Assembly: GCA_021372575.1 (NCBI GenBank)
Contig: JAJFUE010000068.1
Span: forward strand, 1-40,366
Direction of reading: 5' to 3'
Origin: a bacterium
GTDB lineage: Bacteria; Sumerlaeota; Sumerlaeia; MVZB01
DNA length: 40,366 bases
The notes under the pieces: model-generated
What the model was told of the DNA's origin: nothing
Seen by the model: only the letters and a program-made list of their open reading frames with translations
The model's database searches: none
Translations under genes and position numbers: made by a program
Part shown: one piece after another, positions 5,209 through 35,863 of the stretch
How positions within the stretch are numbered: the first letter of the stretch is position 1
Layout of the letters: the number at the start of each line of letters is the position of its first letter

Positions 5209-6123
5209 ATGGTGGATCGTGCATCGTGGATCGTGCATCCGGAGAGGATTCGATTACGATTACGAGCACCAGCCTTCGCCAAGGCTTCGGCCGGCAAGCC
5301 GAGCACGACTCAGGACTCAGCACTCAGGACTCAGGACTCAGGACTCTTGGCATCTTCGCCGGCTGTCACCGAAGCGCCTCCCGCGCCGCCCAAGCCCGCC
5401 TTCTCCCTCATGACGGTGTTGCGCGAGTGGTGCGACGCGTTGGTGATCACGATCCTGCTGGCGATGTTCATCCGCACGTTTCTCGTTGAGCTTTACAAGA
5501 TTCCGAGCGGTTCGATGTCGCCGACGCTCGTTGGGGGTCAGGTCGTCGAGACCGATTACAATCGCGACGGCCGCGCCGATCTCCTCATGCTCGGCGATGG
5601 CTCGGCCCTGTTGTTCGTGAACGATGGCAGCCGGCTCGTCGCGCACGGCCGCGTGACGATCGCGCCCGAGGAGCGCGCGCGCTACGAAAGCGCCGGCGCC
5701 ATCGTCGAACGCGACGACCGCATCCTCGTCAACAAGTTCGCGTACTGGTGGCGCGCGCCGCGCCGGGGCGAGCTTGTGGTGTTCAAGGTGCCCGGGCGCA
5801 TCTGGAGCCCCGACCGGCCGATCTACATCAAGCGTTGCGTCGGCCTGCCGGGCGAGCACATCGGCCTGGCCGCCGACGGCCGCCTCGAGATCGACGGCAA
5901 GCGCGTCGAAGAGCCGCTGTTTTTCCGTGCGCAGCATTACTCGGCCGCGCCGGGCCTGCAGGACAAGGCGGTCGAAAACAACCAGATTTATGTCTTCGGC
6001 GACAACACGCTGAACAGCTATGATAGCCGGTATTGGGGGGGCGTGCCACTCAATCACTTGCGCGGACGACCCTTTTTCCGGTATTTTCCGCTGGGCAAGA
6101 TGATGTTCCTGAATTCCGACTGA
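5209..6123 (+). CDS. lepB: Signal peptidase I (first of two), with an inserted FG-GAP-like segment
   Basis: 304 aa. It cleaves signal peptides at the periplasmic face. A membrane helix (about 75-92) leads into the catalytic box 'YKIPSGSMSPTL' with Ser102; the general base is Lys208 in 'YIKRCVGLPGE'; box C reads 'RRGELVVFK' and box E 'GDNTLNSYDSRYWGGVPL'. The Ser-Lys distance (106 residues) is about twice that of ordinary enzymes. The extra stretch contains 'DYNRDGRADLLML' and 'GSALLFVNDGS', which look like one FG-GAP/VCBS-type calcium-binding repeat. The first 45 or so residues are coded by several short repeats; ATG 5410 is an alternative start just before the helix. An 11-bp gap separates it from the second copy. 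Confidence 0.88.
   Translation: MVDRASWIVHPERIRLRLRAPAFAKASAGKPSTTQDSALRTQDSGLLASSPAVTEAPPAPPKPAFSLMTVLREWCDALVITILLAMFIRTFLVELYKIPSGSMSPTLVGGQVVETDYNRDGRADLLMLGDGSALLFVNDGSRLVAHGRVTIAPEERARYESAGAIVERDDRILVNKFAYWWRAPRRGELVVFKVPGRIWSPDRPIYIKRCVGLPGEHIGLAADGRLEIDGKRVEEPLFFRAQHYSAAPGLQDKAVENNQIYVFGDNTLNSYDSRYWGGVPLNHLRGRPFFRYFPLGKMMFLNSD
5212..5342. repeat. Composite repeat island at the 5' end of lepB
   Basis: Four repeat types lie end to end: GTGGATCGTGCATC twice (5212-5239, i.e. four heptads), (GATTAC)2GAGCAC (5252-5269), an imperfect palindromic CTTCGCCAAGGCTTCGGCCGG segment (about 5275-5300), and five ACTCAGG/ACTCAGC heptads (5308-5342). All are read in frame by the first signal peptidase if the ATG at 5209 is used. 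Confidence 0.9.
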
Positions 6124-6134
6124 AGGACCAAACC

Positions 6135-6995
6135 GTGAGCCGACAGGCCAGCCCAAAGCCCAACCCCAGGAAGACCGGCGCCAAAACCGACCATGAACCC
6201 GGTGGCGTCCGCGGCTTCGTCGATGAATTGATCTTCATCTGCGTCATCGTGATGTTCTTCCGCATGTTCGTTGTCGAATTATACAAGATCCCGTCGGGCT
6301 CGATGACGCCGACGCTGCTGGGCGGGCGCGTCACCAAGGTCGATCTCGACGGCGACGGCATCAAGGAGCTCCTGTTCAGGGATCCCAATTCGATCGAGCC
6401 GCTTTCCTACAAGTGGAACGGCGAGCGCTACATTTACGCCGGCCACGTTCCCGTGCCGTCGGCGCTGATCGACGACTGGGACGCCTCCGGCCGCTTCCGC
6501 TACCAGTTCGACCGCATCCTCGTCAGCAAGATTCCCTACATGTTCCACAATCCCCAGCGCGGCGACATCGTCGTGTTCAAGGTGCCGCCGATCATCTTCA
6601 AGCCCGACGCCTCGATCTACATCAAGCGCGTCGCCGGCCTGCCCGGCGAGCAGATTTCGTTCAACCGCGACGGCCGCCTGATGATCAATGACCAGCTCAT
6701 TGAGCATCCCGATTTCTACAGGACGCAGCATTACGAGGCGATCGTGCCGAACGATTCAGGCGTGACCGACAGGCCGCCCAACCTGCATCTGTTCCCCAAC
6801 GTCAGTTATTTCCCCGTCGGCGCCGGCATGCGCCTTGAGCGCATCCTGGTTCCCGACGGCATGGCCTACGTCTTCGGCGACAACGCGCAGGGGAGCCTTG
6901 ACAGCCGCTTCTGGGGTGGCGTCCCGCTCCCCAACATCAAGGGCCGCGCGTTCCTGCGCATCTGGCCGCTGAACCAGATCAAGTTCCTGCACTAA
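6135..6995 (+). CDS. lepB: Signal peptidase I (second of two), with the same type of insert
   Basis: 286 aa, a tandem paralogue of the preceding gene. It has a membrane helix at about residues 31-46, catalytic box 'YKIPSGSMTPTLLGG' with Ser56, 'RGDIVVFKVP', the general-base Lys164 in 'YIKRVAGLPGEQI', and box E 'FGDNAQGSLDSRFWGGVPL'. Ser-Lys spacing is 108 residues. The insert again begins right after the serine box with a DxDxDG motif ('VDLDGDGIKELLFRD'), matching the first copy in position and character. The GTG at 6135 has GAAGGA 7 nt upstream and sits 11 bp after the first gene, so this start is preferred to the frame-open ATG at 6033. Two such enzymes may share substrates or specialise. 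Confidence 0.9.
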   Translation: MSRQASPKPNPRKTGAKTDHEPGGVRGFVDELIFICVIVMFFRMFVVELYKIPSGSMTPTLLGGRVTKVDLDGDGIKELLFRDPNSIEPLSYKWNGERYIYAGHVPVPSALIDDWDASGRFRYQFDRILVSKIPYMFHNPQRGDIVVFKVPPIIFKPDASIYIKRVAGLPGEQISFNRDGRLMINDQLIEHPDFYRTQHYEAIVPNDSGVTDRPPNLHLFPNVSYFPVGAGMRLERILVPDGMAYVFGDNAQGSLDSRFWGGVPLPNIKGRAFLRIWPLNQIKFLH

Positions 6996-11346: not shown

Positions 11347-11508
11347 GGATTGTCTCCGAGCGACCATCTTTGAATCGCTCGGCACCGATAGTCAAGCCGG
11401 CCTTTGAAGACTATCCGGCTGTGAAAGCCGATTTCTCGACATTCGGATGCTGGGATTGCTAAACTGACTTTATTGTGCTCGGTTAAAATCAATTTTGCGG
11501 GAGAGGCC

Positions 11509-12186
11509 ATGATGAATACGAAACATGCGTTCATTGTCCTGCTGGGATTCGCGGTCGTGATCGGCACCGCGCCGGCTGCGCAAACGAAGCGCTCGACCGA
11601 GAAAACCACCGGCACCGCCGAGAAGGTCGAGGTCGGCACCACGCTGCAGAACCTGCAGGCGGCGTTCATGGGCGAATCCAGCGCCAGCGCGCGTTACGCA
11701 GCGTACGCCAAAAAGGCCGACGAGGAAGGCTATAAGCAGGTGGCCAACATGTTCCGCGCCGCGGCCAGGTCCGAAACCATTCATGCGGCCAATCACGCGG
11801 CGGTCATCAAGAAGCTGGGCGGCGAGCCGGGCGTCATCAACGGGAAGCATTGGGAATTGAAGGCGCCGGAGGTCAAAAGCACGCGCGAGAACCTCGAGGC
11901 GGCCATCAAGGGCGAGAAGTACGAGTCCACGTCGATGTATCCGGCGTTTATCAAGAAAGCCCGCGCCGACAAGAACGCCGCCGCCGTGCGTTCGTTCAAT
12001 TACGCAAACCAGGTCGAAAAGAACCATGCGAAACTCTATCGGACGGCGCTCGACAACCTGGATGCGTGGAAAGACGCCGGCCAGAAATTCTGGGTCTGCC
12101 AGGTCTGTGGCAACATCGTCGAGAAGGTGGATTTCAAGTATTGCCCGGTGTGCAACGAGCCCAGGAAAGAATACAAGCAGATGTAA
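11509..12186 (+). CDS. rbr: Exported rubrerythrin
   Basis: 225 aa. The diiron four-helix bundle carries all expected ligands: Glu in 'FMGESSASARY', ExxH in 'SETIHAANH', Glu pairs in 'IKGEKYES' and ExxH in 'VEKNHAKLY'. A C-terminal rubredoxin-like domain has CQVCGN and CPVCNE, binding one iron. Rubrerythrin reduces peroxide. Unusual is the N-terminus: 'MMNTKHAFIVLLGFAVVIG' followed by APAAQ is a clear Sec signal peptide with an AxA-type cleavage site near residue 24, so the enzyme should be periplasmic, while classical rubrerythrins are cytoplasmic. ATG 11509 (or 11512) follows GGGAGAGG. The DUF2231 membrane gene begins 49 bp downstream. Confidence 0.92.
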   Translation: MMNTKHAFIVLLGFAVVIGTAPAAQTKRSTEKTTGTAEKVEVGTTLQNLQAAFMGESSASARYAAYAKKADEEGYKQVANMFRAAARSETIHAANHAAVIKKLGGEPGVINGKHWELKAPEVKSTRENLEAAIKGEKYESTSMYPAFIKKARADKNAAAVRSFNYANQVEKNHAKLYRTALDNLDAWKDAGQKFWVCQVCGNIVEKVDFKYCPVCNEPRKEYKQM

Positions 12187-12760: not shown

Positions 12761-12764
12761 CGTC

Positions 12765-12800
12765 GATTACGATTACGATTACGATTACGAGCACGAGCAC
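12765..12800. repeat. Hexamer repeat (GATTAC)4(GAGCAC)2
   Basis: Perfect units, in the short gap between the convergent DUF2231 and DUF5107 genes. Same order and orientation as the other copies. Confidence 0.95.
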
Positions 12801-12824
12801 GATTTTACGGCTCATGAACGGTTA

Positions 12825-24672: not shown

Positions 24673-24711
24673 GAGGGACTGGATGGGTTCGTACGTCAAG
24701 TTCGCTCGTTC

Positions 24712-24747
24712 GATTACGATTACGATTACGAGCACGAGCACGAGCAC
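24712..24747. repeat. Hexamer repeat (GATTAC)3(GAGCAC)3
   Basis: Perfect units located in the 175-bp divergent gap between the ABC ATPase and mqnA. Here the repeat lies where the two 5' ends face each other, unlike the copy at 12765 between two 3' ends. Confidence 0.95.
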
Positions 24748-24847
24748 GATGTCGCGCTCATGGTACGGGCTCGCTGATCATCACAATGTGGCATATGCGC
24801 GCGGGGTGTGCGAATATTTTCGGATGGTGCGCGCGCGATCACAGTCC

Positions 24848-27835: not shown

Positions 27836-27874
27836 AACGAGGGTTGAATCGCCGGAGCGGACTCAACCCTCGTT
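27836..27874 (+). terminator. Hairpin after the GT-C glycosyltransferase gene
   Basis: AACGAGGGTTGA (27836-27847) and TCAACCCTCGTT (27863-27874) make a perfect 12-bp stem with a 15-nt loop. It is followed by GTTGTC rather than a clean T-run. A smaller GGCGTA/TACGCC hairpin lies just upstream. It ends the + strand unit and also faces the 3' end of the cysteine-rich gene on the minus strand. Confidence 0.5.
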
Positions 27875-27896
27875 GTTGTCGCGTTCGCGCTGTTTA

Positions 27897-28352
27897 TCAG
27901 TGAGTGTGAGCGGTTTTATTCGTTTCCGTTTTTTTCATCTCACATTGATCTTTGCCCTCGCAAGCCTTTGAACCCTTCACCGAGCAACAAGCCTTGCCAT
28001 CGGCTTTGGTTTTGGAATCCGCCGCGCAGCAGGCCATTGCCCTGGCGCCAGCTTTGGCCTTGCAGCCCGCGCAATCCGCGCATTTTCCGCCGACCGCGCA
28101 CTTGCAATCCGCCAACGAGCAGCAGGCCGTCGCCTTGGCGTCAGCCTTGGCCTTTGAGCCCATCATTGCGCAGCCGGCCATCGTTGTGCAGCCGGTCATG
28201 TTTTTGCAATCCGCGCAGCCGTCTTTGCATGTGCAGTCGGCCTTGGAACAAGCCGTCGCCTTGCAATCGGCCTTGCATTTGCAATCCGCCGTCGCGCAGC
28301 CTGCCGCCGCGATGACGATCGTCATCAGGAACAACATCCAAACGTTTTTCAT
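27897..28352 (-). CDS. Cysteine-rich lipoprotein, probable metal-binding (metallothionein-like)
   Basis: 151 aa. A lipoprotein signal peptide ends in IAAAGC, so Cys19 is lipidated. The mature part holds 24 cysteines in 133 residues, mostly in Lys/Ala/Asp-spaced units such as 'CATADCKCKADCKATACSK', repeated 'CADCK/CADCAGCK' and three CC pairs, plus a methionine cluster ('TTMAGCAMMGS') and a C-terminal HTH. This is low-complexity thiol-rich sequence suited to binding soft metals; no known family is assigned. GAGGAG lies 7 nt before the ATG. The gene is divergent from the cusC-cusA-cusB operon across a 327-bp region, which supports a role in periplasmic or envelope copper/silver buffering. Function is inference. 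Confidence 0.75.
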   Translation of the reverse strand: MKNVWMLFLMTIVIAAAGCATADCKCKADCKATACSKADCTCKDGCADCKNMTGCTTMAGCAMMGSKAKADAKATACCSLADCKCAVGGKCADCAGCKAKAGARAMACCAADSKTKADGKACCSVKGSKACEGKDQCEMKKTETNKTAHTH

Positions 28353-28398
28353 AATCGTGCTCCTCAATCTGCTTCGTTCGGCAGGGTTACGCGCCGAT

Positions 28399-28428
28399 CT
28401 CATACTTTCCTGTACGGAACGTCCCCAA
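28399..28428 (-). promoter_or_regulatory. Candidate promoter with dyad for the cysteine-rich gene
   Basis: On the minus strand TTGGGG (28428-28423), an 18-bp spacer and TATGAG (28404-28399). The spacer contains TTCC-GTACA-GGAA, a dyad placed as in MerR/CueR-type metal promoters. Box matches are weak, so this is tentative. In the rest of the divergent gap 28353-28679 I see no convincing promoter for cusC. Confidence 0.3.
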
Positions 28429-28679
28429 AGCAACTTTTACTTGCCGTCTGACCGGAGCCGCCGATGGCATGATCGGGAAATCCATGGCAAAGGGCGCGCA
28501 TCGAGTCCTGTTCAGGGTGCGGCGTGGAAAATTCTTTGGCCCGACACCGAGCATGCAATAAGCTGAATATTGAAGGAATTGGCGAAAAACACCCAATACG
28601 CGCTTGAAGTCTTTGATTGGCCCGGCCCATGGATTCATTCGGCAAAATCCGTTGATCGACTGCCGGAAGGCCCATCGAC

Positions 28680-30032
28680 ATGCCCCGATTCCATCTCCGC
28701 CTTGTTCTCGGCTTCTCGCTGCTTGCGCTCTTTTCGTGCAGCCGGGTGATTCATCCCGCCGGCGAGGCCGCCGAGCGCGAACGCGCCGCGCGCGCCGGCG
28801 CGATCTTCGAAAAACCCGCCGACAAGCGGCCGCTGCCGGACCTGTCGGAGTCGGCGCCGCTGCCGCAGGCGCTCGAATACGCCTTCAACGCCAACGGCGA
28901 GATCGAGGCCGCGTGGCGCGAATGGCGCGCCGCGATCGAGCGCGTGCCGCAGGCCGGCGCGCTCGCCGACCCGCGCCTCAGCTTCAGTTTTCTTTTCGAC
29001 GCCGCGAATCTCGGCAGCTTCGGCGGCGCGCTCAATTCGATTCGCCTGATGCTCGACCAGGAAATTCCCGGCAAGGGCAAACGCCCGGCAAAGGCGCAGC
29101 AGGCGTTGGCCGAGGCGCAATCGGCGGGCGAAAAATTCCGCGCCGCCAAATACGGCCTTCAGCGCCGCGTCGTGCAGGCCTACGCCGACCTTGCGCTCAA
29201 CCGCCGCCTTGTCGAGCTCACGTCCGAGACACTGCGGCTGCTCAACGAATCCTATAACGTCGCGCTGCACCGTTATCACGAAGGAGGCATGGCGCCGCTC
29301 GGCGATCTGCGCAAGCTCGAGGTCGAAATCGCGCGCGCGCAGAACGAGCAGCAGAGCCTCATCATCCAGCAGCGCGGACTCGAGGCCGCGCTCAACGGCG
29401 TGCTCAACCGCCCCGCCACTGATCCCGTTGGCAAAGTCGAAATTCAGGACGTCGCCGATCCGCAGGGCTCCGACGCCGAGCTTCTCGAGCGCGCGGCCAG
29501 GTCCAACCCCGACCTTGCCGCGCTGCGACGCGACATCGAAGCGCGCGGGGCCGCGCAGGTCCTTGCCGAGCTTCAGCGCCGGCCCGATTACTCGATCGGC
29601 GGCGGGCTCGACAACCCGCTCATGCCGATCGTGACGCTGGGCATGACGCTCCCGATCAACACCGAGCGCATCCAGGCGGGGATCAACGAGGCGCTTCAGA
29701 TGCGCGCGGCCGCCGAGGCCCGGCTTCGCACCACGCAGTCCGACACGCAGGCGCGGCTCATGGTCGCCCTCGCCACTCTGCGCGAAAACCAGCGCGCGAT
29801 CGACAACTACACGAGGTCGATCATCCCGCGCACGCGCGAGCTGCTGGACACGCAGCTCACCACCTACGGCTCGGGCGGTGGCGAAGTCCTCGACGTCCTC
29901 GACACGCAGCGCATGCTGATCGAGCTGCGCAAAATGGTCCCGCGCGCGCGCGCCGACCGCATGCGCGCCTCGGCCGAGATCGAACAAATCGTCGGCGACG
30001 ACATCTATCATTACATGCCGGCCCAGCCATGA
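28680..30032 (+). CDS. cusC: Outer-membrane factor of a CusC/TolC-type efflux system
   Basis: 450 aa. The N-terminus (MPRFHLRLVLGFSLLALFSCS) looks like a lipoprotein signal, with Cys20 as possible lipidation site, though the -2 Phe is not ideal. Long coiled-coil helical repeats follow in two halves (about 55-230 and 255-440), with the OEP-family patterns 'DPRLSFSFLFDAANLG' and 'PIVTLGMTLPINTERIQAG'. It should form the outer-membrane channel for the RND pump. ATG 28680 has GGAAGG about 10 nt upstream. Its stop overlaps the cusA ATG (ATGA, 30029-30032), showing tight coupling. Confidence 0.9.
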   Translation: MPRFHLRLVLGFSLLALFSCSRVIHPAGEAAERERAARAGAIFEKPADKRPLPDLSESAPLPQALEYAFNANGEIEAAWREWRAAIERVPQAGALADPRLSFSFLFDAANLGSFGGALNSIRLMLDQEIPGKGKRPAKAQQALAEAQSAGEKFRAAKYGLQRRVVQAYADLALNRRLVELTSETLRLLNESYNVALHRYHEGGMAPLGDLRKLEVEIARAQNEQQSLIIQQRGLEAALNGVLNRPATDPVGKVEIQDVADPQGSDAELLERAARSNPDLAALRRDIEARGAAQVLAELQRRPDYSIGGGLDNPLMPIVTLGMTLPINTERIQAGINEALQMRAAAEARLRTTQSDTQARLMVALATLRENQRAIDNYTRSIIPRTRELLDTQLTTYGSGGGEVLDVLDTQRMLIELRKMVPRARADRMRASAEIEQIVGDDIYHYMPAQP

Positions 30033-33000
30033 TTGAATCCATCATCGAGTACTCGTGCCGCAACAAGGCGATTGTCATTGCGTTTTTCGTTGCGCTCTCC
30101 GCCGCCGGCGTGTGGGTCATGCAGCGCACGCCGATCGACGCGATTCCGGACCTCTCCGAAAACCAGGTCATCGTCTTCACCGACTGGCCCGGCCGCAGCC
30201 CGCGCGAAATCGAGGACCAGATCACCTACCCGCTTTCGGTCAACCTTCAGGGCCTCGCCGGCGTGAAGGCCGTGCGCTCGTCGTCGGAATTCAACTTCTC
30301 GATGATCAACATCATCTTCGACGACTCGGTCGATTTCTACTTCGCGCGCACGCGCGTCCTCGAGCGCCTCGCGCTTGCCTCGACGTTCCTGCCGCAGGGC
30401 ATTGTGCCGTATCTCGCGCCCGACGCGACCGCGCTCGGCCAGATCTTCTGGTACACGGTCGAAGGTCAGAAAGAGGACCTCGGCTCGCTGCGCTCGATCC
30501 AGGACTGGTACGTGCGCTACCAGCTCAACTCCGTGCCCGGCGTCGCGCAGGTCGCGAGCGTCGGCGGCATGCCGCGCGAATACCAGATCGACGTCACGCC
30601 CGAAAAACTGCGCGCCTACAACGTCACGCTCGGCCAGATCTACGACGCGCTCGCCAGGAGCAACAGCGCCGTCGGCGGCGGCGTGATCCAGAAGGGCAAC
30701 GCCGAATACCTGATCCGCGGCGTCGGCTGGATCCGCGGCATGAACGACATCCGCGAGACGGTCGTCGTCGCGCGAAGCGGATTCCCGATCAAGATCGGCG
30801 ACGTGGCGACCGTGCAGATGGGCCCCGAATTCCGCCGCAGCATCCTCGAAAAAGACGGCCGCGAAGTGACCGGCGGCGTCGTGATGATGCGCTACGGCGA
30901 AAACCCGCTCGACGTCACCCGCCGCATCAAGGACAAGATCCGCGAGCTGCAGCGCGGCCTCCCCGAAGGCGTCCGCATCGTCCCCTTCTACGACCGCACG
31001 CGCCTGATCGAAAACGCGGTCCACACGGTTCGCCGCGTGCTCGAACACGAAATCCTCATCGCCACGATCGCGATCCTGCTCATCCTTGCCCACGTGCGCA
31101 GCGTGTTCGTGATCGTGATCACGCTGCCGCTGTCGATCCTCATCGCGTTCATCCTCATGCGCGCGTTCGGCATCTCGTCGAACATCATGTCGCTCTCGGG
31201 GATTGCGATCTCGATCGGCATTCTGGTCGATCAATCCATTGTCATGCTGGAGAATTCCACGCATCGATTGACCGCGAAATTCGGCCACGAGAAGATCACG
31301 GGCGATACCACCGACATTGTCGCGGCCGCATGCCGCCAGGTCGGCCGCCCCATCTTTTTTTCCGTTGTGATCATGGTGATCTCGTTCCTGCCGGTCTTCG
31401 CGCTCACCGGCCAGGAAGGCAAGCTGTTCCACCCCCTCGCGTTCACGAAAACCTTCGCGCTCATCGGCACGGCGATCATTTCGATCACGCTCGTGCCGGC
31501 GATCATCCCGCTTCTCGTACGCGGCCGCCTCTCGCACGAGATGGACAACTGGATCATCCGCAGCTTCATCGAAATGTATCGGCCCGTGCTGGGGTTCCTC
31601 ATCAAGCGGCCCAAGACCGTCGTGTGGCTGTTCGTGATCCTGCTGTCGCTCGGGCTGCTCACCGCGCGGCACCTCGGCCGCGAGTTCATGCCGCCGCTCG
31701 ACGAAGGCAGCATCCTCGACATGCCGGTCACCGTGCCGCGCGCATCGGTCACCGAAGTCGCCGACGACCTCAAGGCGCGCGACGCCCTTCTGCGCTCGTT
31801 CCCTGAAATCGAGCTGGTCGTCGGCAAGGGCGGCCGCGCCGACACCCCCACCGACCCCTCGCCGCTCGACATGGTCGAGACCGTGATCACGCTTCACCCA
31901 CGTGACCACTGGCTCAAGCGCAAGCTCAACTTCACCGACGCGCATCGCGAGACCGACCGCGTGATCGGCTTGCTCGAAAACGCGGGTTCGATCAAGCGCA
32001 TCGAGAACGCCGATGCGCGCGGTGCATTCATCAACAGTGTCGCCAACTCTGCGCTCACGCGGTTTGATTCGGCGATGTGCCTCGACATCGTCCGTCGCCA
32101 GCTCGCGCTCAACGATACGCTTGCCGATGATTCCGTGCGCCTCATCGCCGACCGCCTGTTCGCGCAGATCGACGGCCACCAGGGCTGGGCGAAACCTTTT
32201 GCGCCCGCCGAACGCATGGCGCTCACCGACGAGCTCATCCGCGCGCACCACGCGCAGTTCGTGCGCCCGGGACAGGAGATCGATATCCGCGCGGTGATCG
32301 ACGACGCGCTGGCGCGCCTCAAATCCGGCGGCCACCTCAGCCCCGCGATGGCCGATCCGCTCGCGCCGATCCCGTCGCGCTGGAATTCGTTCACGCGCTT
32401 CGTCAGCGAAACGCTCGATCGCGAGCAGCTCGATTTCGTCCAACAGACCGCCGTTGCGCTCGACGCGATGCGCTTCAAAAACACGAGCGAGTGGGTCCAC
32501 GATACCAACCAGCAGCTCTTCACCCCGGCGATGCTCCAGTTCGAAAAAGCCCTCCTCGCCGAGGCCGAGTCGAACGCGAAGATGGAAAACCGGTGGACAG
32601 CAAAAGACTCAGCCCTCAGTCCTCAGCCCTCAGTCCTGGCTTCTTATTTCGGCGATCACGCCTTCCTGTGGCTGAAAACAAAGGCCGATCTCGTGCGCGA
32701 GCTCGATGAGAACGTGCGCATGGTCGGGTGGGCGAACATCTGGACGCAGCCGATCATCAACCGCGTCGATATGCTCGCCACCGGCGTGCGCACGCAGCTT
32801 GCGGCCAAGGTCTATGGTCGCTCGCTCGACCAGATCCAGCAGGTCTCGAACCAGATCGCCGATGCGCTGCGCGCGATCCCCGGCGCGGTCGATGTCGTCG
32901 CCGACCAGATCGTCGGCAAGGGCTACATCGAGATCGAGGTCGATCGCGAGCGCGCCGCGCGTTACGGAGTCAAGGTCGGCGACGTGCTGGACGTGATCGA

Positions 33001-33925
33001 GGTTGCGCTCGGCGGCAAGCCGATCACCACGACCGTCGAGGGCCGCGAGCGTTATCCCGTGCGCCTTCGCTACGCGCGCGACTGGCGCGCCGACGAGGAT
33101 TCGATCAAGCGCATCATCGTCGAGACCGCCGACCCCGGCGCGCCCGTGCACCTTTCGGACGTCGCCCGCGTGCGCGTCGTCGAGGGCCCCGTGATGATCA
33201 AGAGCGAAAACGGGCTGCTGCGCTCGTACGTGCAGCTCAATGTGCGCGACCGCGACATCGTCGGTTTCGTCGAGGAAGCACAGCGCATCATCAACAATAA
33301 AATTCATCTGCCCGAAGGCTCGTATATTGAGTGGACCGGCCAGTTCGAGCACCAGGTGCGCGCGCGCAACACGCTGCGCATCGTCTTCCCGACCGTCCTC
33401 GTGCTCATCTTCCTGATCCTTTACCTCACGTATCACGACCTCGCGCACGCGACGCTGATGATGCTCGCGGTGCCGGGCGCGCTCGCCGGCGGCGTTCTGT
33501 TCCAATGGCTGTTCGGCTACAACTTCAGCGTGGCGGTGTGGGTCGGTTACATCGCGTGCTTCGGCATGGCGACCGAGACCGGCATCATCATGCTCGTCTA
33601 TTTGCGCGACGCGATCGCCGAGCGCGGCGGCCTCGCCGGCATCCCGGACCTCGCCGTCCTTGAAGAGACCGTGATGGCGGGCGCGGTCCACCGCCTGCGC
33701 CCGAAGCTGCTCACCGAGGGCACCGCCATCGTGGGGCTCGCGCCGATGCTGTGGGCGAGCGGCGTCGGCGCCGAAGTCATCGCCCCCATGGCCGCCCCCG
33801 TCCTCGGCGGCCTCCTCATCGCCGACGAGGTGATCGACATCTTCCTCCCCGTTCTCTTCTGCCAGGTCGAAAAACGCCGCTGGCGCAAGATTCACGAACC
33901 CGAAAGTGAAGAACATGACGCATAA
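30029..33925 (+). CDS. cusA: Heavy-metal RND efflux pump, CusA type, with a ~250-residue insertion
   Basis: 1298 aa, against about 1045 for E. coli CusA. HME-RND features are clear: 'TPIDAIPDLSENQVIVFTDW' near the start, the TM4 proton-relay aspartate in 'GILVDQSIVMLEN' (about 401) and the TM10 glutamate in 'MATETGIIMLVYL' (about 1183). Met565 ('ILDMP'), Met615 ('SPLDMVET') and Met915 ('RVDMLATG') match the Cu(I)/Ag(I) methionine triad; the first two keep the E. coli spacing of exactly 50. The third is displaced by about 250 extra residues (roughly 630-890), alpha-helical in character and including a heptad-coded stretch 'SALSPQPSVL'. It exports Cu(I)/Ag(I) to the outside with CusB and CusC. 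Confidence 0.93.
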   Translation: MIESIIEYSCRNKAIVIAFFVALSAAGVWVMQRTPIDAIPDLSENQVIVFTDWPGRSPREIEDQITYPLSVNLQGLAGVKAVRSSSEFNFSMINIIFDDSVDFYFARTRVLERLALASTFLPQGIVPYLAPDATALGQIFWYTVEGQKEDLGSLRSIQDWYVRYQLNSVPGVAQVASVGGMPREYQIDVTPEKLRAYNVTLGQIYDALARSNSAVGGGVIQKGNAEYLIRGVGWIRGMNDIRETVVVARSGFPIKIGDVATVQMGPEFRRSILEKDGREVTGGVVMMRYGENPLDVTRRIKDKIRELQRGLPEGVRIVPFYDRTRLIENAVHTVRRVLEHEILIATIAILLILAHVRSVFVIVITLPLSILIAFILMRAFGISSNIMSLSGIAISIGILVDQSIVMLENSTHRLTAKFGHEKITGDTTDIVAAACRQVGRPIFFSVVIMVISFLPVFALTGQEGKLFHPLAFTKTFALIGTAIISITLVPAIIPLLVRGRLSHEMDNWIIRSFIEMYRPVLGFLIKRPKTVVWLFVILLSLGLLTARHLGREFMPPLDEGSILDMPVTVPRASVTEVADDLKARDALLRSFPEIELVVGKGGRADTPTDPSPLDMVETVITLHPRDHWLKRKLNFTDAHRETDRVIGLLENAGSIKRIENADARGAFINSVANSALTRFDSAMCLDIVRRQLALNDTLADDSVRLIADRLFAQIDGHQGWAKPFAPAERMALTDELIRAHHAQFVRPGQEIDIRAVIDDALARLKSGGHLSPAMADPLAPIPSRWNSFTRFVSETLDREQLDFVQQTAVALDAMRFKNTSEWVHDTNQQLFTPAMLQFEKALLAEAESNAKMENRWTAKDSALSPQPSVLASYFGDHAFLWLKTKADLVRELDENVRMVGWANIWTQPIINRVDMLATGVRTQLAAKVYGRSLDQIQQVSNQIADALRAIPGAVDVVADQIVGKGYIEIEVDRERAARYGVKVGDVLDVIEVALGGKPITTTVEGRERYPVRLRYARDWRADEDSIKRIIVETADPGAPVHLSDVARVRVVEGPVMIKSENGLLRSYVQLNVRDRDIVGFVEEAQRIINNKIHLPEGSYIEWTGQFEHQVRARNTLRIVFPTVLVLIFLILYLTYHDLAHATLMMLAVPGALAGGVLFQWLFGYNFSVAVWVGYIACFGMATETGIIMLVYLRDAIAERGGLAGIPDLAVLEETVMAGAVHRLRPKLLTEGTAIVGLAPMLWASGVGAEVIAPMAAPVLGGLLIADEVIDIFLPVLFCQVEKRRWRKIHEPESEEHDA
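32607..32634. repeat. In-frame CCTCAGT-type heptads inside cusA
   Basis: ACTCAGC CCTCAGT CCTCAGC CCTCAGT: four phased heptads related to the ACTCAGG array at 5308-5342, lying within the extra segment of the pump gene. Confidence 0.85.
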
Positions 33926-34055
33926 GACTCATAGGACGCATAGGCCCCATGATCTCCACCGAAAGCTGTTTGCAAAGTCCCGCAGGGACGACCGCTTTCA
34001 GCCCGCCACGATAGTGGCGGGTAAAGAGACCGATAAACACGAGTCCCGGAGGGAC
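33911..34055. repeat. Repeat cluster between cusA and cusB
   Basis: Three elements: GACGCATA-type 9-mers around the cusA stop (33917-33950), two copies of GTCCCG(C/G)AGGGAC (33977-33989 and 34043-34055), and between them a perfect CCCGCCAC-GATA-GTGGCGGG hairpin (34002-34021). The whole fills the 165-bp gap before the cusB GTG and would fold strongly in the transcript, so it may lower cusB expression relative to cusA. Confidence 0.8.
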
Positions 34056-34090
34056 GATTGAATCACCGAATCAACAACGGAGACCCTAAC

Positions 34091-35863
34091 GTGAATCACC
34101 CACTCCATAAACGCATTCTCTTCTTCCTCAAGCTCCTCGAAATCCGCCTGCGCTTCGTGCTGATCCTCATCATCACCGCGCTCGTCGTCGGCTACTGGGA
34201 TCACATCCAGAATTATTGGGAGCGCTGGCAGCGCGAGCGCGCCGGAACCGTCGAGCAGCACGAGCATGCCGCCGAGTTCGAATTCTTCTGCCCGATGCAC
34301 CCGTTTGTCGTTCGCCACGCGCCGGGCAAGTGCCCGATCTGCGGCATGGAGCTCGTGAAGCGCAAACCGGGCGCCGCCGCGGCGCTGCCCGAAGGCACGA
34401 TCGCGCGCGTGCAGGCCTCGCCCGAGCGCATCATGCAGGCCGGCGTGCAGATCGAGCCGGTGGCATATCGGTTGCTTGTGCGGTCGGTCCGCACGTACGG
34501 CGTGATCGAGCCCGATGAAACCAGAGTCGCGCGCATCGCGGCCCGATTCCCCGGCCGCATCGAAAAGCTGATGGTCAACGCCGTCGGCATGAACGTCAAA
34601 AGAGGCGAGCCCCTCGCGCGCATTTACAGCCCGCGGTTCCTCGCCGCGGCGCAGGAATACATCCAAGCGCTCAATTCCGAGCGGCAGACAAAGGCCAGCT
34701 CGGTTGCCGGCGCCGACGAAAAGCGCCGCGCAGCGCAGCTCAGCGAATATGCCCGCCAGCGCCTGCTCCTTGCCGGATTCACCGAGCAGCAACTCAACGA
34801 CATCCGCGACGCCGGCAAGGTCGCCAACACCGTCACGCTCTATTCGCCGCTCGCCGGCACGGTCCTCGAAAAGAAGTCGCTCGAGGGCGATGTCGTCGAG
34901 GAAAGCTCGATGCTCTACACGATCGCCGATCTGTCGCGCCTGTGGGTTCAGGTCTCGGTCATCGAGTCCGACCTCGCATCGATCAAGCCGCAGATGCCGG
35001 TCGAGATCACGACCGTCGCGTTCCCCAACGAGATCTTCTACGGCACCGTCGATTTCATTTATCCGACCGTCAACCCGGACAGCCGCACGGCCAAGGTGCG
35101 CGTCGTGATCGACAACCCCGCCGGCAGGCTCAAGCCCGGGATGTATGTGACGGCATCGATGCGCTCGCCCGTCGGAGAGTACGGCCCCGTCGCTTCGTTC
35201 CAAAAGCAGGCTGCCGCGCCGCAACCCGCGCCGAACATCAAGCTGCCGACGATGACCCCCGAGGGCGCCGACCGCTACCTCAACTCGCTCGCGCCCGGCG
35301 CGATGTATTACCAGTGCCCGATGGACAAGGAAGTGATTTCCGACAAACCCGGCGACTGCCCCAAGTGCGGCATGCACCTCGAGATGAGCCACAAGGCCGC
35401 CGAGCCGAAGAAGGCCGTCGAGCGCGTTGACGAGCCTTCGACCGAGCAGTGGGCCGAGGGTTGGTCGTGCCCGATGCACCCCGACGAGCTCGCAGCCGGC
35501 CCCGGCGTCTGCACGATCTGCGGTTGCGGGATGAAGCTCGAAAAAATCCGCATCGAGCGCGTGCTGTCGATCCCCGAGTCCGCCGTCATCGATACCGGCA
35601 CGCGCAAGATCGTTTATGTCGAATCGCAGCCGGGCGTGTATGACTCGCGCGCGGTCAAGCTCGGCGAGCGTGCCGGCGCATTCTACCCCGTCATCGAAGG
35701 CCTGAAGCTCGGCGACCGCGTCGTCGAGCGCGGATCGTTCCTCATCGACGCCGAGGCGCGGCTCAACCCGCCCGCAACCGGCGGGACGGCTCCATCGGCC
35801 GCGATGCCAGGCATGGCGACTCCAACCGGCGGTGCGCACGCCGGCCATCAGCATGGATCATGA
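34091..35863 (+). CDS. cusB: CusB-type periplasmic adaptor with three heavy-metal-binding modules
   Basis: 590 aa. An N-terminal membrane helix (about 15-35) is followed by a first HMBD module ('FFCPMHP' with Cys67 to 'CPICGMELV'), the adaptor core ('GRIEKLMVNAVGMNVKRGEP', alpha-hairpin 'YARQRLLLAGFTEQQLNDI', 'YSPLAGTVLEKKSLEGDVV'), a beta-barrel, then two more HMBD modules starting at Cys409 ('YQCPMDKEV', 'CPKCGMHLE') and Cys460 ('WSCPMHPDE', 'CTICGCGMKLE'), the membrane-proximal domain and a Met/His-rich tail ('MPGMATPTGGAHAGHQHGS'). Typical CusB has none or one HMBD. The third module has an extra Cys-Gly before its GM. GTG 34091 has GGAG 8 nt upstream; a TTG at 34058 is in frame. Confidence 0.92.
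   Translation: MNHPLHKRILFFLKLLEIRLRFVLILIITALVVGYWDHIQNYWERWQRERAGTVEQHEHAAEFEFFCPMHPFVVRHAPGKCPICGMELVKRKPGAAAALPEGTIARVQASPERIMQAGVQIEPVAYRLLVRSVRTYGVIEPDETRVARIAARFPGRIEKLMVNAVGMNVKRGEPLARIYSPRFLAAAQEYIQALNSERQTKASSVAGADEKRRAAQLSEYARQRLLLAGFTEQQLNDIRDAGKVANTVTLYSPLAGTVLEKKSLEGDVVEESSMLYTIADLSRLWVQVSVIESDLASIKPQMPVEITTVAFPNEIFYGTVDFIYPTVNPDSRTAKVRVVIDNPAGRLKPGMYVTASMRSPVGEYGPVASFQKQAAAPQPAPNIKLPTMTPEGADRYLNSLAPGAMYYQCPMDKEVISDKPGDCPKCGMHLEMSHKAAEPKKAVERVDEPSTEQWAEGWSCPMHPDELAAGPGVCTICGCGMKLEKIRIERVLSIPESAVIDTGTRKIVYVESQPGVYDSRAVKLGERAGAFYPVIEGLKLGDRVVERGSFLIDAEARLNPPATGGTAPSAAMPGMATPTGGAHAGHQHGS

Follow-up and report, generated by a model that had tools for sequence, protein, structure and literature searches.

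What does a short lipoprotein unusually rich in cysteine do beside an operon predicted to export copper and silver? Here, we consider one such gene in a 40,366-nucleotide stretch of DNA from a bacterium of the phylum Sumerlaeota (the window), following it from its own signals and neighbours to its relatives, its host and the known proteins that it resembles.

The lipoprotein gene and the neighbouring operon

The gene, its export and lipidation signals, its Cys density and repeats, its position and the Cus type of the adjacent pump are all apparent at the sequence level; the features concerned are as follows.

27845..27880, no strand assigned: inverted repeat ACGAGGGTTGA...TCAACCCTCGT, ends approximate, read from the sequence
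27897..28352, minus strand: orphan Cys-rich lipoprotein, recognised by its open reading frame, lipobox IAAAGC, Cys count and repeats; no family or solved relative
28161..28199, minus strand: Met/Cys patch, residues 52-64 (MTGCTTMAGCAMM), from the translation
28353..28679, no strand assigned: divergent intergenic region of 327 bp between the lipoprotein gene and cusC; no palindromic operator or sigma-70-like promoter recognised
28360..28365, minus strand: Shine-Dalgarno-like GAGGAG with the ATG 7 nt downstream, read from the sequence
28680..30032, plus strand: cusC-like outer-membrane efflux protein (OEP family) with a lipobox-like LFSC (PF02321, E 8e-34)
30029..33925, plus strand: cusA, RND pump of the CusA/CzcA family (TIGR00914, 1038.8 bits against a cut-off of 701.45)
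34058..35863, plus strand: cusB, periplasmic adaptor with three heavy-metal-binding (HMBD) stretches (PF16576, E 5.5e-72; PF19335, three matches)

The candidate gene is a 151-residue open reading frame on the minus strand (28352..27897, by translation), whose product reads MKNVWMLFLMTIVIAAAGC|ATADCKCKADCK...AHTH. By inspection, the N-terminal MKNVWMLFLMTIVIAAAGC is a signal peptide with a hydrophobic core that ends in a lipobox, AAGC, with its invariant cysteine, and signal peptide and lipobox lie in frame with GAGGAG and ATG; the frame thus arranged looks like a real gene. Cys19 is the predicted lipid anchor. In E. coli, the Lol rule predicts the destination membrane from the residue at position +2, and as this residue is Ala rather than Asp, the rule, which comes from E. 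coli while the phylum here is Sumerlaeota, predicts the outer membrane; the protein is probably anchored there, at the periplasmic face. Downstream, a long inverted repeat lacking a U-run separates the stop codon from a convergent gene, and this repeat, absent from the list returned by a terminator scan, is a possible two-way terminator.

The mature protein of 133 residues contains 24 Cys (18%), 29 Ala, 22 Lys, 11 Asp, 6 Met and 2 His, and since Cys19, predicted to be lipidated, is counted among the 24, there are 23 possible free thiols. Cys makes up on average 1.06% of the window's 25 other predicted proteins, and at the window's own Cys rate the observed content has a probability of about 2e-22, which excludes chance as its source. 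The chain is also internally repetitive: its best self-alignment scores 154 against a maximum of 124 among 200 shuffles, none of which reaches the observed value, with ADC occurring six times (0.44 expected) and ADCK four times (0.08 expected). In contrast to these units, the spacings typical of metallothioneins show no enrichment over composition, CC, CXC and CXXC each being found three times against 4.2, 3.4 and 2.8 in shuffles of the same composition. Four of the six mature Met residues, together with two Cys, fall within residues 52-64, and both His lie in the C-terminal HTH. Much of the initial annotation is thereby borne out, namely the term lipoprotein, the figure of 24 Cys for a mature part of 133 residues (exact, with Cys19 included), the ADCKC/CADCK-type units, the Met cluster and the terminal His. 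An AlphaFold model has no fold and no confident helix, with a mean pLDDT of 43 that rests on a single sequence, for which such a score would often be obtained anyway; it is as expected for a disordered sponge such as apo-SilE, and the chain is of low complexity and probably disordered.

The operon on the other side of the intergenic region was described as a cusCAB from which the lipoprotein gene diverges, and this arrangement is confirmed, the three genes running in the order cusC-cusA-cusB from 28680 to 35863 on the plus strand. Residues M565, M615 and M915 of the window CusA align with M573, M623 and M672 of E. coli K-12 CusA, and the retention of this three-methionine site points to Cu(I)/Ag(I), not divalent ions, as the exported metal. 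Together with the three HMBD motifs of CusB and the TIGR00914 match, it upholds the Cus label, and the pump is by these features predicted to be a monovalent Cu(I)/Ag(I)-type HME-RND system. No copper regulator was recognised beside the operon, and no operator or promoter shared by the two transcription units was seen in the 327-bp region. Relative to the E. coli protein, the window CusA carries an insertion of about 245-250 residues (window 31913-32686) after the region of the second metal-site methionine; the insertion is common to the aligned relatives from Hydrogenedentota and Sumerlaeota, and a similar pump length is found in many planctomycetotal relatives.

Elsewhere in the window, 11473-12186 encodes a protein like rubrerythrin/nigerythrin that seems to begin with a signal peptide, perhaps an exported rubrerythrin, and 5209-6995 holds two tandem genes that by inspection resemble signal peptidase I (YKIPSGSM motif), both of which have additional inserted sequence after the motif. 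One simple repeat, (CGATTA)n(CGAGCA)n, recurs at three sites, 509-553, 12764-12804 and 24711-24750, each time near gene ends.

Relatives of the lipoprotein and of the pump

The lipoprotein matches nothing in Pfam, NCBIfam or the PDB, and no homologue was found in 41 kin genomes, on plasmids, on viral contigs, in GTDB genome contigs (searched with peptide seeds, a method that would overlook a strongly diverged repeat protein), in 47 whole genomes holding 48 related cusA loci, or at any of 79 related cusA loci, which belong mainly to Hydrogenedentota and Planctomycetota. Five weak matches in the 47 genomes (E 0.02-0.08) were set aside as chance, having wrong-looking frames or stops. In the searched genomes, none of which has the lipoprotein, CusA identity reaches 82% (partial match). 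By sequence comparison the lipoprotein is an orphan, and with homologues missing from every searched genome, a conserved genetic link to Cus cannot be shown. The proposal that it is a new component of Cus-type systems was therefore too strong for a gene without homologues, conservation across the 79 loci and 47 genomes giving it no support.

A search for short Cys-rich lipoproteins beside HME-RND operons had also been suggested, and its outcome is divided, for homologues are missing while unrelated secreted Cys proteins are about 4.5-fold enriched upstream of the pump gene. The scan that revealed them was one of composition, retaining open reading frames of 45-260 residues with a signal-like N-terminus, at least five Cys and at least 4% Cys; filters for signal peptides and overlaps were added because most Cys-rich frames of the first scan were frame artefacts. 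By distance from cusA, it returned 24 frames within 4 kb on the upstream side (8.7 per 100 kb) and 12 within 4 kb on the downstream side (5.0 per 100 kb), with eight farther away (2.0 per 100 kb) and five in unrelated control stretches (1.8 per 100 kb). The upstream set thus compares as 24 in 276 kb with 13 in 666 kb for far and control sequence combined, a ratio of 4.5 (P 8e-6, computed over phylogenetically non-independent loci), and as the five control frames also look like artefacts, the true enrichment may exceed this value.

Examples of these proteins are found at L027:5072-5530, L045:7084-7524, L015:5748-6188, L077:5333-5842, L016:532-936 and L004:7370-7885 (locus and coordinates), and at L083:7069-7455, from the same class as the window's host. 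Nine of ten that were tested belong to no Pfam or NCBIfam family, the remaining one (L046:13512-14000) resembling Csp1 below the cut-off; Cus pumps of the window's type therefore often adjoin small exported Cys proteins, which vary between loci. At most related loci, the gene for the small Cys protein precedes cusA in the same orientation, whereas the window's gene is divergent and unrelated in sequence; it has the highest Cys count of the scanned set and is denser in Cys than nearly all. The recurrence of such mostly dissimilar proteins at the Cus operons of planctomycetes and hydrogenedentotes suggests partners that arise repeatedly, and which have been overlooked because they have little sequence in common.

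Regarding the proteins themselves, those at L027, L045, L083, L015, L077, L016 and L032:3086-3484 match no Pfam or NCBIfam family and many of them end in a hydrophobic tail such as LRI, FLN or RLLF, and the loci with upstream Cys-rich secreted proteins come from Planctomycetota, Hydrogenedentota and Sumerlaeota. The protein at L004:7370-7885, from Hydrogenedentes, is exported, carries YHS-like and HMBD-like Cys motifs (by inspection) and immediately precedes cusA.

The host genome and possible functions

The host assembly (4.63 Mb, 95.6% complete, with the gene on contig C106) was searched with family models whose controls matched, and returned no P-type ATPase (PF00122), HMA domain (PF00403), CsoR (PF02583), CusF (PF11604), MNIO enzyme (PF05114; control matches where expected, in two genomes), DsbA (PF01323) or VKOR (PF07884). 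Each single absence is weak, since the assembly is an incomplete MAG and one family model was used for each; together they point to copper handling at the level of the envelope, in an envelope without the common thiol oxidases. With no P-type ATPase, HMA domain or CsoR detected, envelope defence is the main recognisable route and Cus the main recognisable copper exporter; with no CusF, the usual soluble metal carrier is missing; and with neither DsbA nor VKOR, exported thiols may stay reduced. That P-type ATPase, HMA, CsoR, DsbA and VKOR should all go undetected in one bacterial assembly is unusual if real. The same composition scan, applied to 296 kb sampled from this genome, gave one other Cys-rich exported frame, which we take to be similar to a FeoB-associated protein.

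Our preferred reading, to which we assign about an even chance, is that the lipoprotein is an envelope thiol sponge for Cu(I), and perhaps Ag(I), that lowers the free metal while Cus clears it. Exported by Sec and held by its lipid at the periplasmic face of the membrane, the chain would bind soft monovalent metal in the envelope through a Met patch and some 23 Cys thiolates, keeping free Cu(I), and perhaps Ag(I), low while the neighbouring pump removes it. The thiols may be reduced, bind metal and be co-regulated with the pump, and the reading as a whole draws on composition, signals, position and genome context. Two indirect lines favour a metal role in the envelope, the roughly 4.5-fold excess of small Cys proteins just upstream of related cusA genes and the host inventory without detectable P-type ATPase, HMA, CsoR, CusF, MNIO, DsbA or VKOR. 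For the lipoprotein gene taken by itself, the case consists of position and composition. On the side of the sponge are the Cys density beyond chance, the ADCK repeats, the lipobox and start signals, and a Cu(I)/Ag(I)-type pump with an HMBD adaptor, and against it stand the lack of a homologue, Cys spacings at shuffle level, no shared operator or promoter, and a divergent layout where most relatives have theirs on one strand. Of the membrane-tethered thiol sponge put forward initially, a Cys-rich envelope lipoprotein beside a genuine Cus operon survives, its description as a metallothionein holds by analogy only, and its description as a Cus component finds no support in conservation.

The lipoprotein may possibly also hand its metal to the pump through the CusB adaptor, a step favoured by position and nothing beyond it, and sequestration by itself would explain the same facts. 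A wider proposal, which we consider rather doubtful, concerns Sumerlaeota without P-type copper ATPases, CusF, CsoR and Dsb-type oxidases: here a lipid-anchored polymer of unmodified thiols would take the place of the soluble carrier and, as a membrane-tethered metallothionein, donate Cu(I) to Cus. Copper defence would then be confined to the envelope, and the polymer would be one among many Cys-rich proteins that evolved independently as partners of planctomycete-type Cus pumps.

Two other readings seem to us unlikely, to a similar degree. In the first, the lipoprotein is structural or redox-active, its Cys forming disulphides among themselves or with envelope proteins, or acting as a thiol buffer against oxidants, with the Cus operon an incidental neighbour. 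The Cys of chlamydial OmcA and OmcB form disulphides, and a short Cys-rich lipoprotein has the make-up of OmcA too; divergent neighbours need no common function, and the Cys spacing is not of the metallothionein type. However, no member of the DsbA or VKOR families was found in the host, other Cys-rich exported proteins are few in the 296 kb sampled, and the gene adjoins a Cu(I) pump of a kind at which Cys proteins are enriched. In the second, what the chain soaks up in the envelope is a different soft metal (Zn, Cd, Hg or As), or metal generally, and it is no partner of Cus. Thiolate-rich chains bind many soft metals, the sequence does not reveal any selectivity, and nothing conserved ties the orphan to copper genes, but the Met triad marks the adjacent pump as one for monovalent Cu/Ag.

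Far less probable is a frame without function, arisen by chance or decaying from low-complexity repeats. The lack of homologues, a near-neutral codon score and an opposite strand that is also open (27952-28566) would fit such a frame, but Shine-Dalgarno sequence, ATG, signal peptide and lipobox align in one frame, with no signals of these types seen in the opposite one, and the Cys and repeat statistics also argue against it. Least probable of all, and rejected because the MNIO enzyme (PF05114) is missing from the host genome search in which controls matched as expected, is a bufferin- or oxazolin-like MNIO RiPP with Cys converted to copper-binding heterocycles, a class of Cys-containing, Sec-exported copper binders in which about 16% of Buf2 members are predicted lipoproteins (PMC12452194) but from which the lipoprotein also departs in having no DUF2282 match and no EGKCG repeat.

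Comparison with known copper-binding proteins

An envelope thiol sponge for copper, the reading that we prefer, is not new in kind, being preceded by SilE, CusF, Csp1 and the bufferins, and the novelty initially seen in it gives way to a direct precedent in SilE, which is disordered and acts as a periplasmic sponge next to a Cus-type pump (PMC5008109). Like the lipoprotein, SilE and PcoE are small, exported, low-complexity and probably disordered, are encoded as their own unit beside a Cus-type RND pump, and are proposed to take up metal ahead of that pump (PMC5008109); an interplay of SilE with SilB has also been described (PMC8686694). SilE binds metal through His and Met motifs, with no lipid anchor described in PMC5008109, whereas the lipoprotein has 24 Cys, few His and a predicted lipid anchor, and no sequence relation between the two was found. 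The pump neighbourhood of SilE/PcoE is present in the window (Met triad, divergent cusCAB), but the family with its His/Met motifs is not, the lipoprotein having two His only.

CusF and SilF are likewise periplasmic accessories of Cus pumps, but CusF is a folded five-stranded beta-barrel (PMC7558416), and neither the lipoprotein nor the host genome matches CusF_Ec. Proteins of the Csp1 type (TIGR04401, DUF326) are exported, contain many Cys and store exported Cu(I) bound to thiolate (PMC12510493, PMC7558416), and a gonococcal member protects against copper (PMC12510493); they differ in being four-helix bundles, with a Tat signal in methanotroph Csp1, and searches of Pfam and NCBIfam gave the lipoprotein no match to either family. 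Bufferins (Buf1 DUF2282, Buf2) and oxazolins, also Sec-exported and Cys-containing, chelate periplasmic copper with modified Cys, some being predicted lipoproteins (PMC12452194), but they require the MNIO enzyme, not found in the host genome, and the lipoprotein lacks their DUF2282 and EGKCG features.

Metallothioneins such as SmtA are small, very Cys-rich and low-complexity as well, but cytosolic, and as the lipoprotein matches none of their families in Pfam or NCBIfam, with CC, CXC and CXXC spacings unenriched, the name applies by analogy only. Chlamydial OmcA, a short Cys-rich envelope lipoprotein, is alike in make-up, but has a disulphide cross-linking role and no metal pump known in its context. 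Among exported sponges, SilE relies on Met and His, Csp1 on folded helix bundles and bufferins on modified Cys; the novelty would lie in a copper sponge that is lipid-anchored and uses unmodified Cys, and such a protein, if real, would show that plain thiols can function in a bacterial envelope where the usual disulphide machinery is missing.
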